The notes under the pieces: generated by a model
What the model was told of the DNA's origin: nothing
Seen by the model: the letters and a program-made list of their open reading frames with translations, nothing else
Database searches by the model: none
Position numbers and translations under genes: made by a program
Assembly (NCBI RefSeq): GCF_022829285.1
Contig: NZ_JAKSYI010000023.1
Span: forward strand, 1-64,000
Origin: Methylobacterium sp. J-078
GTDB lineage: Bacteria; Pseudomonadota; Alphaproteobacteria; Rhizobiales; Beijerinckiaceae
Length of the DNA stretch: 64,000 nt
Reading direction: 5' to 3'
Shown: positions 31,467 through 38,012 of the stretch, piece by piece
How positions within the stretch are numbered: the first letter of the stretch is position 1
Layout of the letters: each line of letters opens with the position of its first letter

Positions 31467-31939
31467 GGCGGCGCGCCGGCCGACCCGTCCCAGCGCGCGG
31501 CGGCTCGGTCGTCCGCCTCCGTCGCCTCCACCCAGGCGCCTGTGGTGCCGTCGGCGAGGTGCTCGCGCTTCCAGAACGGGGCCCGCGTCTTGAGGTAATC
31601 CATCAGGAAGCTCGCGGCCTCAAAGGCCGCGATCCGGTGACTCGAGGCGGTGACCACCAGCACGATGCCCGCGCCGGGCGCCACCAGGCCGTGGCGGTGG
31701 ATCACCCGAACCCCGTGGAGCGGCCAGCGGGTGCGCGCGGTCTCGACCACCCGGCCGATCTCGGCCTCGGCCATCCCGGGGTAATGCTCCAGTTCGAGCC
31801 CCGTGAGGCGGCCGCCCTCGTCGCGGCACAGGCCCGTGAAGGTGACGATGGCCCCGGCCCGGCCGCCGAATTCCTCGGTGAACCGGGCGATCTCGGTGCC
31901 TGCGTCGAAGGGCGCGCTCTGGATGCTGACGTCCGGCAT
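31463..31939 (-). CDS. moaE: Molybdopterin synthase catalytic subunit MoaE
   Basis: A 158-residue subunit that, with MoaD, inserts the dithiolene sulfurs into precursor Z to make molybdopterin. Conserved residues include FTGLCRDEGG, LELEHYPGMAE and RVIHRHGLVAPG. The catalytic lysines K117 and K124 lie in MDYLKTRAPFWKRE. The stop codon (TAA) lies inside the terminal repeat of the element at 31360-31466, so the natural C-terminus has probably been replaced after residue 158. Its ribosome site (GAGGG) is part of a 13-bp duplication. No moaD is adjacent. The molybdenum hydroxylase at 50-53 kb is a plausible user of the cofactor. Confidence 0.95.
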   Translation of the reverse strand: MPDVSIQSAPFDAGTEIARFTEEFGGRAGAIVTFTGLCRDEGGRLTGLELEHYPGMAEAEIGRVVETARTRWPLHGVRVIHRHGLVAPGAGIVLVVTASSHRIAAFEAASFLMDYLKTRAPFWKREHLADGTTGAWVEATEADDRAAARWDGSAGAPP

Positions 31940-31940
31940 G

Positions 31941-31966
31941 GTCTTCCCTCGGAGTCTTCCCTCGGA
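31941..31966. repeat. Perfect 13-bp tandem duplication containing the moaE ribosome site
   Basis: GTCTTCCCTCGGA occurs at 31941-31953 and 31954-31966. On the minus strand each copy carries GAGGGA, so the Shine-Dalgarno sequence of moaE is present twice. Confidence 0.92.
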
Positions 31967-32099
31967 ACGGCGCCCGCCCCCGCCCCGGGGGCGATACGCC
32001 CTTGACGAGGCCCGACGAACCTGCCCTCACGGGCACGGGCGCTCTATGCCCCCGAACGCCCGGCGACACCACCGGGATTCCGTAAGGACGTTTTCCGCC

Positions 32100-33119
32100 G
32101 TGACCCCAGAGCTGATCCTGCCCCATGACGGCGCCCTGCCCGTCTTCTCGGCCCGTCCGGTCTGGTGCGGGCGCGCGAGCACGGTGATCGGCGACGCAAC
32201 CATCGGCGCGCAGGCCTGGCTCGGCGACCACAGCGTCATCCGCGCCGACGGCGACCGCATCGTCATCGGCGAGCGCTTTTGGCTCGGCCACCGCTCCACC
32301 GTGCACATCGCCACCAACACCTACCCGACCCTGGTGGGCGACCGGGTGACCGTGGGCCGCAACGCGGTGGTGCATGCCTGCACGATCGGCTCGGACGTGG
32401 TGATCGAGGACGACGTGATCGTGCTCGACGGGGCGCGCGTGGAGGACGGCGTGCTCATCGAGGCGGGCGCCACGGTGTTTCCCCGGTCGCATCTGGCCGC
32501 GGGCTTCGCCTATGCGGGCAGCCCCGCCAAGCCGGTGCGGGCGATCGGTGCGCCCGAGATCGCCGAGCGGGCCGAGCGCCTGCGCGAGGCCTCCGGCGAC
32601 CTGCCCCCCGCGCTGCCCGCCGACGCGGCGGAGCCGGACCCCAGCGTCTACGTCGCCCGCACGGCGCGCCTGCGCGGCCGCATCGCCCTCGGGGCCGGCT
32701 CCAGCGTGCTGTTCTCCTGCGACCTCCACGCCGAGGTCGGCCCCATCGTGGTCGGCGCCAACACCAACATCCAGGACAACAGCGTGATCCGCACCCGGGG
32801 CGAGGGCGTCGTCCTGGGGCGCGACACCACGATCGGGCACAATGTCCGCCTCGCCGATTGCCGCATCGGCGCGCGCGGCCTCATCGGCATCGGCTGCGTC
32901 GTGGCGCCCGGCACCGTGATCGCCGACGACGTGCTGCTGGCCGCCGGTGCCACCACCGATCCGGGCCAGCTCCTGGAGGGCGGCCACCTCTGGGGCGGGC
33001 GTCCGGCCCGCATCCTCGCCCCGCTCGATGCGGAGAAGCGCGCGATGATGGCCCGGGTGGTCGAGGGCTACGTCGCACACGGGGTGGCCTACCGGCAGGC
33101 GGAGGCGGCACTCGGTTGA
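32100..33119 (+). CDS. Tandem (double-domain) gamma-carbonic-anhydrase-like protein
   Basis: A 339-residue protein made of two left-handed beta-helix gamma-CA-like domains, about residues 20-150 and 180-315. Domain 1: VIRADGDRIVIG, STVHIATN, VTVGRNAVVHACTIG, YAGSPAKPVRAI. Domain 2: VGANTNIQDNSVIRT, TTIGHNVRLADCRIG, WGGRPARI. Aligned to Cam/YrdA, domain 1 keeps His69 and His92 but has Arg87 at the middle ligand. Domain 2 keeps only the middle ligand, His247, with Arg231 and Ala252 at the other two. Normal family members have one domain of 170-200 residues. Start GTG at 32100; no strong ribosome site. It is monocistronic and divergent from moaE. Confidence 0.88.
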   Translation: MTPELILPHDGALPVFSARPVWCGRASTVIGDATIGAQAWLGDHSVIRADGDRIVIGERFWLGHRSTVHIATNTYPTLVGDRVTVGRNAVVHACTIGSDVVIEDDVIVLDGARVEDGVLIEAGATVFPRSHLAAGFAYAGSPAKPVRAIGAPEIAERAERLREASGDLPPALPADAAEPDPSVYVARTARLRGRIALGAGSSVLFSCDLHAEVGPIVVGANTNIQDNSVIRTRGEGVVLGRDTTIGHNVRLADCRIGARGLIGIGCVVAPGTVIADDVLLAAGATTDPGQLLEGGHLWGGRPARILAPLDAEKRAMMARVVEGYVAHGVAYRQAEAALG

Positions 33120-33144
33120 GGCAGGCCTCCACGCCACGGAATCA

Positions 33145-34528: not shown

Positions 34529-34598
34529 AGGACGAGCGGTTCAGAATTTGACGCTACGGCGTGAGCCGGGCAGTCATGCGTCGTCCGAGGAGACTTCC

Positions 34599-37500
34599 AT
34601 GTTTCGTACCTTGATGACGACGCGGCGGTTCGCGCCCCTGTTCTGGTGCCAGTTCTTCTCGGCCTTCAACGACAATTTCCTGAAGAACGCCCTCGTCTTC
34701 CTCATCCTGTTCCAGGTCGGCGGCCCGGGCGGCGGCTCGCCAATGCTGGTGACCCTGGCGGGGGCGGTCTTCATCGGCCCGTTCTTCATCCTCTCGGGTC
34801 TCGGCGGCCAGATGGCCGACCGCTACGACAAGGCGCTCATCGCAAAGCGGCTGAAATTCGCCGAGATCTTCGGCGCGGCCGCCGCAGCGCTCGGCTTCTG
34901 GATGCATTCCGTGCCGGTGCTGTTCGTGGCGCTGGGCCTATTCGGCACGATCGCGGCCCTGTTCGGGCCGATCAAGTACGGCATCCTGCCCGACCACCTG
35001 CGCCGCGACGAGCTCACCGCCGGCAACGCGCTGGTGGAGGCGGCGACCTTCCTCGCCATCCTGCTCGGCACTATCGTGGCGGGCCTCGCCACCGCCATGG
35101 GCGGCGGCGCGCTGGCCTTCAGCTCGATGATCATGGTGTTCGCGGTCCTGTGCTGGCTCTCGGCGCGGGCGATCCCGTCCACTGGCGAGGCCGCCCCGAC
35201 TCTGCGGGTCGATCCCAACGTCGCCCGCTCCACCGGCGCCCTCCTGCGCGACCTCTGGGGCGACACCCGGCTCTGGCGCGGCTCGCTCATCGTGAGCTGG
35301 TTCTGGCTGGTCGGCGCCGTCATCCTGTCGCTGCTGCCCGTCCTCGTGCGCCAGAGCCTCAACGGCTCCGAGACCGTGGTGACGACCCTGCTCGCCGTGT
35401 TCTCCATCGGCATCGCGGTGGGCTCCGGCCTCGCCTCCTGGCTCGCCAGCGGCCGCATCGTGCTGCTGCCCACCCCCATCGGCGCCCTGCTGATGGGCGC
35501 CTTCGGCCTCGACCTCGCCTGGACGGTGGCGCATCTGCCCCCCGTCTCGGGCGATCCCGCGGGGGCCTGGGCCTTCCTCACCACGGGCACGGGCCTGCGC
35601 GTCACCATCGACCTGTTCGGCCTCGCGGTCGCGGGCGGGCTCTACATCGTGCCCTCCTTCGCCGCCGTGCAGGCCTGGACCGACAAGGACAAGCGCGCCC
35701 GCGTCATCGGCGCCGTCAACGTGCTCACCGCCGCCTTCATGGTGACGGGGGCGCTGGGCCTCGCCGCCCTCCAGGGCGCGGGCTGGTCGATGGCAGCACT
35801 CCTCACCCTGCTGGGGGTCCTCAACCTCGTGGCGGGCGTCGTCATCCTCGCGGTGCTGCCCACGAGCCCGTTCCGCGACTTCCTCTCGATCCTGTTCCGG
35901 GCCTTCTACCGCCTGGAGGTGCGCGGCCTGGAGAACGTCGAGAAGGCCGGCCCGAACGCCATCATCGCCCTCAACCACGTCTCGTTTCTCGACGCGCCGC
36001 TGGCCCTCTCGCTCCTCGACCAGGAACCCGTCTTCGCCGTGGACCACGGCATCGCGCAGCGCTGGTGGGTGAAGCCGTTCCTGGCGATGACGAAGGCGAT
36101 GCCGCTGGACCCGACCCGGCCGCTCGCGACCCGCACCCTGATCAACGCGGTCAAGAACGGCGAGACCCTGATCATCTTCCCCGAGGGGCGCCTGACCGTC
36201 ACCGGGAGCCTGATGAAGGTCTATGACGGGGCGGGCCTCATCGCCGACAAGTCCGGCGCCATGGTGGTGCCGGTGAAGATCGAGGGCCTGGAGAAGACGG
36301 TCTTCTCCCGCCTCTCGAAGAACCAGATGAAGCGGCGCTGGTGGCCCAAGGTCACCGTCACGATCCTTTCGCCGGTGGCCCTTACCGTGGACCCGGCCCT
36401 CAAGGGCAAGGCCCGCCGGCAGGCGGCGGGCGCCGCGCTCTACGGAATCATGTCCGACCTCGTCTTCCGCACCGCCGACATCGATCGCGGCCTGATGCAG
36501 GCCCTCATCGACGCGGGCGACCGCCACGGCTGGCGCCGCACGGCCGTCGAGGATCCGATGGGTCGCTTGAGCTATTCCCGCCTGGTGATGGGCGCCAACG
36601 TCCTGGGGCGAAAGCTCCAGGGGCTCGGCGCCCCGGGCAAGCCGCTCGGCGTGATGCTGCCGAACGCCAACGGCGCGGCGGTGACCCTGTTCGCCCTGGC
36701 CTCGGCGGGCCGCGTGCCGGCGATGATCAACTTCTCGGCGGGTGCGGCCAACATCCTGTCCGCCTGCAGGACCGCGGAGGTCGACACCATCCTGACCTCG
36801 CGCGCCTTCATCGAGAAGGGCCGCCTCGGTCCGATGGTCGAGGCCCTCGGGAGCGCGGTATCCCTCGTCTACCTCGAGGATATCCGCGCCGGCATCACCA
36901 CGGGCGACAAGCTCCGGGGCTTCCTCAGCCCGCGCGCGCCCCTGGTGGCCAGGCGCGGCGACGACCCGGCCGCGATCCTGTTCACCTCCGGCTCCGAGGG
37001 GGCGCCCAAGGGCGTGGCGCTCGCCAACCGCAACATGCTTGCCAACACCGCGCAGGTGGCCGCCCGGATCGATTTCGGGCCGAGTGACAAGGTCTTCAAC
37101 GTTCTGCCGGTCTTCCACGCCTTCGGCCTGACGGCGGGCCTCGTGCTGCCCCTGGTCTCGGGCGTCCCGGTCTACCTCTATCCCTCGCCGCTGCATTACC
37201 GGATCGTGCCGGAGCTCATCTACGGCTCCAACGCCACGGTCCTGTTCGGCACTGACACCTTCCTCTCCGGCTACGCCAAGACCGCCCATTCCTACGACCT
37301 GCGCTCCCTGCGCTACGTGGTGGCCGGCGCCGAGGCGGTGAAGGAATCCACCCGCAGGACCTGGGGCGAGAAGTTCGGCCTGCGCATCCTGGAGGGCTAC
37401 GGCGTCACCGAATGCGGTCCGGTGGTCGCCCTCAACACGCCGATGTTCAACCGCTTCGGCACGGTCGGCCGGCTCCTGCCCGGCCAGGACTGGCGCCTCG

Positions 37501-38012
37501 AACCCGTACCCGGAATCGACGAGGGTGGCCGCCTGTCCCTGCGCGGCCCCAACATCATGCTGGGCTACCTGCGGCCCGAGCGCCCCGGCGCGATCGAGGC
37601 GCCGCCGCAAGGCTGGCACGACACCGGCGACATCGTCGCCATCGACGCCCAGGGCTTCGTGACCATCAAGGGCCGCGCCAAGCGCTTCGCCAAGATCGCC
37701 GGCGAGATGGTGTCGCTGGCGAGCGTCGAGACCATCGCGGCCGAGCTCTGGCCGGATGCGCCGAGCGCGGTGGCCGCCGTGCCGGATGCCCGCAAGGGCG
37801 AGCGGCTGGTGCTGTTCACGGAAGCCAAGGACGCGACCCGGGCCGCCTACCAGAGCTTCGCCAAGGGCAAGGGCGCACCCGAGATCGCGATGCCCGCCGA
37901 GGTGGTGGTGCTGGAGCGCCTGCCGATGCTCGGGACGGGCAAGGTCGACCAGGTCAGCGTGGTCAAGCTCGCCCGCGAACGGGCGGCCGGCGAGGCCCCC
38001 GCCGCCGCATGA
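34599..38012 (+). CDS. aas: LplT-Aas fusion: lysophospholipid transporter / acyltransferase / acyl-ACP synthetase
   Basis: A 1137-residue three-domain protein. Residues 1-430 form an MFS transporter like LplT (FWCQFFSAFNDNFLKNALVF). Residues ~440-630 are a PlsC acyltransferase with NHVSFLD (His about 458) and FPEGRLT. Residues ~640-1125 are an AMP-forming acyl-ACP synthetase with LFTSGSEGAPKGVAL near 794, GYGVTECGP and WHDTGDI. Together these flip lysophospholipids inward and reacylate them. E. coli uses two genes for this; the fused form is common elsewhere. GAGGAG lies 8 bases before the ATG at 34599. It is probably controlled by the divergent TetR gene. Confidence 0.95.
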   Translation: MFRTLMTTRRFAPLFWCQFFSAFNDNFLKNALVFLILFQVGGPGGGSPMLVTLAGAVFIGPFFILSGLGGQMADRYDKALIAKRLKFAEIFGAAAAALGFWMHSVPVLFVALGLFGTIAALFGPIKYGILPDHLRRDELTAGNALVEAATFLAILLGTIVAGLATAMGGGALAFSSMIMVFAVLCWLSARAIPSTGEAAPTLRVDPNVARSTGALLRDLWGDTRLWRGSLIVSWFWLVGAVILSLLPVLVRQSLNGSETVVTTLLAVFSIGIAVGSGLASWLASGRIVLLPTPIGALLMGAFGLDLAWTVAHLPPVSGDPAGAWAFLTTGTGLRVTIDLFGLAVAGGLYIVPSFAAVQAWTDKDKRARVIGAVNVLTAAFMVTGALGLAALQGAGWSMAALLTLLGVLNLVAGVVILAVLPTSPFRDFLSILFRAFYRLEVRGLENVEKAGPNAIIALNHVSFLDAPLALSLLDQEPVFAVDHGIAQRWWVKPFLAMTKAMPLDPTRPLATRTLINAVKNGETLIIFPEGRLTVTGSLMKVYDGAGLIADKSGAMVVPVKIEGLEKTVFSRLSKNQMKRRWWPKVTVTILSPVALTVDPALKGKARRQAAGAALYGIMSDLVFRTADIDRGLMQALIDAGDRHGWRRTAVEDPMGRLSYSRLVMGANVLGRKLQGLGAPGKPLGVMLPNANGAAVTLFALASAGRVPAMINFSAGAANILSACRTAEVDTILTSRAFIEKGRLGPMVEALGSAVSLVYLEDIRAGITTGDKLRGFLSPRAPLVARRGDDPAAILFTSGSEGAPKGVALANRNMLANTAQVAARIDFGPSDKVFNVLPVFHAFGLTAGLVLPLVSGVPVYLYPSPLHYRIVPELIYGSNATVLFGTDTFLSGYAKTAHSYDLRSLRYVVAGAEAVKESTRRTWGEKFGLRILEGYGVTECGPVVALNTPMFNRFGTVGRLLPGQDWRLEPVPGIDEGGRLSLRGPNIMLGYLRPERPGAIEAPPQGWHDTGDIVAIDAQGFVTIKGRAKRFAKIAGEMVSLASVETIAAELWPDAPSAVAAVPDARKGERLVLFTEAKDATRAAYQSFAKGKGAPEIAMPAEVVVLERLPMLGTGKVDQVSVVKLARERAAGEAPAAA

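Follow-up and report, generated by a model that had tools for sequence, protein, structure and literature searches.

Within a stretch of 64,000 nucleotides from Methylobacterium sp. J-078 (NZ_JAKSYI010000023.1, positions 1 to 64,000), referred to here at its full length as the window, a gene on the forward strand (32100..33119) codes for two domains related to gamma-carbonic anhydrase (gamma-CA) in one polypeptide chain. In Cam-type gamma-CAs, the metal site is located at the subunit interface, with two histidines provided by one side and one by the other (PMC4519908). The double protein is likely a gamma-CA relative in which the two beta-helix domains of one chain are each specialised as half of a single composite interface site. 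The first domain (D1) retains two of the metal-binding histidines and the second domain (D2) retains the third, and this complementary set is invariant among diverse homologues.

Division of the metal ligands between the two domains

The gene starts with GTG, ends with TGA and codes for 339 amino acids. This assignment is based on the translation, on homologues that agree with it in length and start, and on the GC content by codon position (0.753/0.529/0.941), which is similar to that of the adjoining genes. An open frame of 505 codons on the opposite strand (31620-33137) spans the whole gene; it was taken as a high-GC artefact, since its GC content by codon position (0.915/0.591/0.704) is unlike that of the adjoining genes. 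All features of the gene described below lie on the forward strand. D1 (residues 5-150; 32112..32549) and D2 (residues 178-337; 32631..33110) were delimited by family scan, AlphaFold model and column entropy. Both are predicted to form a left-handed beta-helix, D1 with the half-site of the A-side and D2 with that of the B-side and a C-terminal Tyr helix. D1 begins with an N-terminal strand of the family motif LPYxGxxP, which reads LPHDGALP in the window protein. A helix (residues 151-167, as assigned by DSSP from the AlphaFold model) and the following linker lead over to D2 (residues 151-177; 32550..32630), and by column entropy the linker is among the least conserved stretches.

The original prediction had placed two gamma-CA-like domains in one chain and had named ten residues (R48, D50, H69, R87, H92, N223, Q225, R231, H247 and A252). 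The reading frame and all ten residues agree with the translation, and the two domains were borne out by the alignment, in which D1, D2 and the single-domain gamma-CAs occupy common columns for the nine residue pairs examined, including H69/R231, R87/H247 and H92/A252. Both halves match gamma-CA and hexapeptide families in profile scans, and the left-handed beta-helix and C-terminal helix typical of the gamma-CA fold are present. In the AlphaFold model of the single chain, calculated from a 127-sequence alignment, D1 and D2 are packed confidently as judged by the confidence scores (predicted local distance difference test, pLDDT, 96.8; predicted template modelling score, pTM, 0.94). This model was used instead of an earlier one from 41 sequences (pLDDT 81.9, low confidence where D2 begins), for which single-domain proteins were found by Foldseek among the 50 matches listed.

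For the analysis of conservation, 399 rows were aligned, comprising 351 proteins, the window protein included, and 48 loci, with some genes present twice. They were obtained from three protein searches (best 120 of 923, 120 of 1138 and 120 of 661), one genome scan and three further loci; 128 sequences of less than 70% identity served as a diverse subset. The loci of the genome scan were chosen by peptide patterns that include conserved positions (in the stretches N-x-QDN and VVHACT), a choice that favours N223, Q225, D226, N227 and H92. The result was unchanged in the 354 rows remaining without them (H69 351/351, H92 353/353, H247 353/353).

His69 (32304..32306) and His92 (32373..32375), at the positions of Cam His81 and His122, were identified in all rows having the position (396/396 and 398/398). 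The same holds for His247 of D2 (32838..32840; 398/398), at the position of Cam His117. The equivalent ligands of the other domain have been lost and the positions are variable. At the Cam His117 position of D1, occupied by Arg87 in the window protein (32358..32360), Arg is present in 193 of the 399 rows, Ala in 55, many other residues in the remainder and His once. In D2, the Cam His81 position is taken by Arg231 (32790..32792; His in 27/399) and the Cam His122 position by Ala252 (32853..32855; His in 66/399). Three histidines per domain are therefore not found in the window protein, since D1 has two and D2 has one; by sequence, the three histidines together with Arg/Asp and Asn/Gln/Asp come together across one possible interface, made of D1 and D2.

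The division extends to the second shell. Arg48 and Asp50 (32241..32249), which we take to be at the positions of Cam Arg59 and Asp61, are kept in D1 (395/395 rows each) and lost at the D2 positions 210 and 212. Conversely, Asn223, Gln225 and Asp226 (32766..32777), at the positions of Cam Asn73, Gln75 and Asp76, are kept in D2 and absent from D1 (61, 63, 64); N223 is present in 398 of the 399 rows and Q225, D226 and N227 in every one. The proposal that D1 retains the Arg/Asp pair and D2 the Asn/Gln pair was thus confirmed in near-invariant form. In the diverse subset, H69, H92, H247, R48, D50 and Q225 are invariant (128/128) and N223 is present in 127, while positions 87, 231 and 252 vary widely, which shows that the complementary split of the ligands is more than a chance pattern of the sequences. 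The further claim that each domain has lost exactly those ligands which the other provides is valid for the window protein and most relatives, and the complementary His set is fixed in the alignment; it does not extend to the rows with His at 252 or 231, nor to two homologues, P0043 (D1) and L008 (D2), in which one domain has the complete triad, either regained or left as a relic.

The homologues are named in the databases as gamma carbonic anhydrase family protein or as Carnitine operon protein CaiE, and these automatic names conceal a different design of the site. The window protein scored below the equivalog cut-offs for CarbAnhydGPos (NF050158; 174.9 bits, cut-off 250), which bears on that one subgroup and not on the whole gamma-CA family, for PaaY (TIGR02287; 114 bits, cut-off 319.6) and for CaiE (NF010150; 82.8 bits, cut-off 305).

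Division of the wider interface and the proposed site

In a published analysis of gamma-CA trimers, the interface residues of both sides have been described, together with a salt bridge between subunits, Arg45-Asp61 (PMC8000050). These interface positions were carried over to both domains by constant offsets, with the nine pairs mentioned above checked by alignment. The 17 positions of the A-side were found to be conserved in D1 (entropy 0.75) versus D2 (2.35), and the eight positions of the B-side conserved in D2 (0.57) versus D1 (2.06). Entropy was nearly equal at the 79 other positions (1.34 and 1.46), and a contrast between the sides as strong as this did not occur in 20000 permutations of positions. 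Besides the interface Arg/Asp and Asn/Gln/Asp, the split covers the N-terminal strand, present in D1, and the C-terminal Tyr helix with Tyr324, Tyr/His327 and Phe/Tyr331, present in D2 and not in D1. Tyr324 and His327 (33069..33080) correspond by offset to Tyr161 and Tyr164 of gamma-PmCA; Y324 is invariant in the diverse subset (128/128), and position 327 is Tyr in 120 and His in six of these sequences. The strict complementary conservation in a diverse family, including second shell, strand and helix, supports the original prediction that a D1 face and a D2 face have to meet for one complete site to form.

As controls, 58 single-domain gamma-CAs were analysed, which all retain the three histidines, Arg, Asp, Asn and Gln; at the Asp61 position, Asp is present in 50 and Glu in eight. 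Although 34 of them came from the pattern scan, the remaining 24 also have the complete H-H-H set. The B-side set is conserved in these controls as well (entropy 0.66).

An independent decay of the two domains, with a random loss of ligands that has left a non-catalytic scaffold or a metal-free binding protein, is very improbable. It is known that gamma-CA-like (gamma-CAL) proteins lack two of the histidines and that inactive gamma-CA variants complement an Arabidopsis mutant (PMC7567890). Random loss, however, would not keep exactly one complementary set and the matching second shell invariant in 128 of 128 sequences. The entropy contrast and the controls thus disfavour decay by chance and favour a site made once, from the A-side of D1 and the B-side of D2.

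Several observations weigh against the composite site. His252 is present in 66 of the 399 rows, of which 62 stem from the third protein search, with a query from a Ramlibacter metagenome-assembled genome (MAG), and the full triads of L008 and P0043 have been mentioned above; with 2/399 rows, one for each domain and at otherwise drifting positions, the latter appear too rare to overturn a split site. On the lost faces, Gly63 of D1 (127/128) and Cys207 (127/128) and Val249 (124/128) of D2 have nevertheless been conserved. In single-domain gamma-CAs, the A-side does not exceed the other positions in conservation (entropy 1.40 vs 1.50), so that part of its strictness in D1 is peculiar to the double family. 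In a mean-field direct coupling analysis (392 rows, effective number of sequences 193), the inter-domain signal was too weak to separate the faces; when the 20 to 200 highest-ranking pairs between the domains were taken, those of D1 A-side and D2 B-side were mildly enriched (1.7 to 2.7 fold), and for D1 B-side and D2 A-side the value was 0 to 1.5 fold, values which derive from few pairs and were not used as evidence. Finally, some gamma-CAs or PaaY proteins have been described to be devoid of carbonic anhydrase activity (PMC7447434, PMC11110157).

For the composite site, it is proposed that the A-face of D1 meets the B-face of D2 within one chain. D1 would contribute His69, His92, Arg48/Asp50 and the N-terminal strand, and D2 would contribute His247, Asn223/Gln225/Asp226 and the C-terminal Tyr helix. 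One Zn(II) would be bound by two ligands from D1, His69 and His92, and a third from D2, His247, and Arg48 and Asp226 would form a salt bridge across the interface. In Cam, Asn73 and Gln75 have been assigned a role in hydrogen bonding around the metal-bound water (PMC4519908, PMC5746736), and Asn223 and Gln225 are predicted to be part of such a network. The zinc-bound hydroxide would attack CO2 or, as in PaaY, a coenzyme A (CoA) thioester; for PaaY relatives with a gamma-CA site, CO2 hydration, thioester cleavage or both have been reported (PMC11110157).

At the positions of the proton-transfer pair proposed for gamma-PmCA, His69/Tyr164 (PMC8000050), H72/Y327 is present in 250 of the 399 rows. 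The window protein and 99 others close to it have T72/H327 (residues 72, 32313-32315, and 327, 33078-33080), so that the histidine has seemingly moved to the other domain; apart from the window protein, these 100 rows are made up of 75 from the first search and 24 from Methylobacterium loci. As they may reflect a single event, the exchange was dropped as an independent proof of a domain contact.

Distribution, functional unit and genomic neighbourhoods

The closest named relative found is from Methylobacterium goesingense (99%; L038). The distribution of doubles is patchy: they occur in 10 of the 119 genomes sampled from the family and in 7 of the 199 from the order (G000, G008, G049 and G083 belong to both samples). 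By genome scan, doubles were identified in Methylobacterium, Bosea, Afipia, Piscinibacter and MAGs of other alpha- and betaproteobacteria, and by protein search also in Rhodovulum, Cereibacter and Palleronia. One further double is located on a contig labelled as uncultured planctomycete (L083); the two genes beside it are 86 and 88% identical to Piscinibacter, so that the label is doubtful and transfer or mis-binning may be involved. In the tree, the D1 sequences group together with good support, as do the D2 sequences, each group on a long stem among the single-domain gamma-CAs. With a p value of 0.224 in the approximately unbiased test for a sister relation of D1 and D2, the tree is compatible with tandem duplication of one gene as well as with fusion of two gamma-CAs.

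The genome of the window contains one double copy and, elsewhere, one ordinary single-domain gamma-CA. Among 13 double-bearing genomes, a single-domain gamma-CA was identified in five, including this one, and not found in the other eight (G008, G083, G035, G038, G102, G073, G188 and G262), where the other matches were only weak hexapeptide matches (E 1e-7 to 1e-3); three of the eight may hide such a gene, as G102 is 84% complete and G038 and G073 consist of 510 and 280 contigs. Within the family, it was not found in six of the ten double-bearing genomes, versus a gamma-CA-like match in 108 of the 109 genomes without a double (best E 1.3e-11 or better, at the level of matches and not of triads). 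As far as gene content indicates, the double can thus do without an ordinary single-domain gamma-CA, and it may take the place of that enzyme. A single-domain gamma-CA as a required partner was rejected, because none was found in 8/13 genomes.

D1 and D2 could also be part of larger trimers or of two stacked trimers (three chains), or a single-domain gamma-CA could join them as the third member, in the manner of the heterotrimer of plant complex I; the site would then perhaps lie between chains. Such an assembly is conceivable, though less likely than not. While the gamma-CAs described in the cited papers are trimers (PMC4519908, PMC7447434, PMC7567890, PMC8000050) and 5/13 double-bearing genomes encode a possible third member, the gene content of the other eight argues against it, and from geometry a two-domain chain would not be able to alternate in a ring of three. 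Furthermore, the faces which would close a trimer, the B-side of D1 and the A-side of D2, show greater variability than the remaining helix and are also more polar. This suggests that the lost faces are no longer canonical trimer contacts, and the functional unit may therefore be the two-domain chain itself.

The genomic context was surveyed at 55 loci, 22 outside and 33 within Methylobacterium, by blast with 14 neighbour proteins; some flanks were short (L140, L141, L081). A predicted 2-hydroxyisobutyryl-CoA cluster was identified around the double at 12 of the 22 loci outside Methylobacterium (L069, L070, L073-L077, L080, L082, L083, L139 and L143, from alpha- and betaproteobacteria; 11 without a duplicate, L074 and L075 being nearly identical), versus none of the 33 within. 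All 12 clusters contain a large subunit of the methylmalonyl-CoA mutase type and a MeaB GTPase. An AMP-forming ligase is present in 11, a 2-hydroxyacyl-CoA (thiamine pyrophosphate) lyase in nine, a cobalamin adenosyltransferase in eight, a 3-hydroxybutyryl-CoA dehydrogenase in five and a B12-binding small subunit in six, the flank ending before it in some of the others. The 2-hydroxyacyl-CoA lyase model NF058623 was matched above its cut-off by four of five lyase frames, the fifth (L080) being a piece of 365 residues. Clusters for the degradation of 2-hydroxyisobutyric acid have been described as hcl-hcmAB-meaH and lyase-HCL (PMC7176365), and the gene set beside the doubles fits these, with the mutase assigned by family only. 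The words "carbonic" and "hexapeptide" do not occur in the main text of that paper, and no report of a gamma-CA gene in 2-hydroxyisobutyrate clusters was among the literature matches listed, subscription journals being mostly outside their reach.

This linkage at 12/22 loci, together with PaaY and TrlF, which have a gamma-CA architecture and cleave thioesters (PMC11110157), could point to a composite site that serves mainly as a zinc-dependent CoA thioesterase of the PaaY type, releasing CoA from hydroxyacyl-CoA or formyl-CoA, and not as a carbonic anhydrase. A main role of this kind is possible, though not the expectation. The low scores for PaaY and CaiE given above argue against it, as does the lack of the cluster at all Methylobacterium loci. 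In the genome of the window, the lyase and mutase queries found only distant relatives (best 36% and 44%), and the ligase query gave no match, this query being without a positive control. In addition, the contrast between six of ten and 108 of 109 family genomes looks as if the double could replace the ordinary gamma-CA. As a synthesis, it is tentatively put forward that the lineage has left the trimer, giving a monomeric chain with one composite zinc site as a bacterial counterpart to the monomeric dUTPases, and that in part of its range it was recruited as a zinc thioesterase or bicarbonate supplier for the 2-hydroxyisobutyryl-CoA pathway. The link to the predicted clusters also offers a testable role for a member of them that had no assignment.

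In the window, the neighbours of the double are a divergent MoaE gene and a TetR-type gene, with no sign of a shared pathway. Further downstream (34548-38012), a fused major facilitator superfamily transporter, acyltransferase and acyl-ACP ligase of known architecture was identified (NF005291, 1798 bits, cut-off 1349).

Comparison to known systems

No report of a fused or split-site gamma-CA was found among the literature matches listed, with subscription journals mostly beyond their range. A solved chain with two beta-helices is known from Desulfovibrio, a putative acetyltransferase of 461 residues (PDB 3c8v, chain 3c8v_B), which aligns over both domains with 17% identity and may be another fused pair. 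As the gamma-CA site lies at the subunit interface, the double family can be regarded as a natural experiment in dividing a self-complementing interface site after fusion, with each half-site conserved in the domain that uses it and mostly free to vary in the other. It provides a simple way to ask whether catalysis by a gamma-CA requires the trimer, and a one-site scaffold in which both faces can be changed independently.

With the homotrimeric gamma-CAs, Cam, YrdA and the CamH subclass, the double shares the beta-helix fold, the interface residues and the arrangement of two plus one histidines (PMC4519908). In these enzymes, however, every chain carries both half-sites and a trimer has three sites, whereas the double would give one. 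The thioesterases PaaY and TrlF are similar in their gamma-CA architecture, zinc dependence and occurrence in CoA-thioester pathways (PMC11110157), but they are unfused, the PaaY orthologs are described as homotrimeric, and the double remains far under the PaaY cut-off.

Judged by the sequence pattern, the closest earlier case of one live interface reached through ligand loss is the gamma-CA/gamma-CAL heterotrimer of plant mitochondrial complex I, where losses of ligands leave one of three zinc interfaces (PMC7447434, PMC7567890). In Vigna radiata, the complete interface is the one between CA1 and CA2, as given in the same papers. There, CAL proteins lack two histidines and V. radiata CA1 lacks one, and none is mentioned as lost from CA2. 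In contrast to the double, the plant proteins are separate chains without fusion and, as far as they are described there, without a strict division of one half each; the double differs in its fusion, in the strict one-half-each split and in two further faces that seem to have been released. For the transfer of a trimer site into one chain, the nearest precedent, by analogy, is found in the monomeric dUTPases of herpesviruses, which are about twice the size of the homotrimeric enzyme, form one catalytic site from its motifs and have been proposed to originate from gene duplication (PMC8961515). Fold and enzyme are unrelated to those of gamma-CA in this case.
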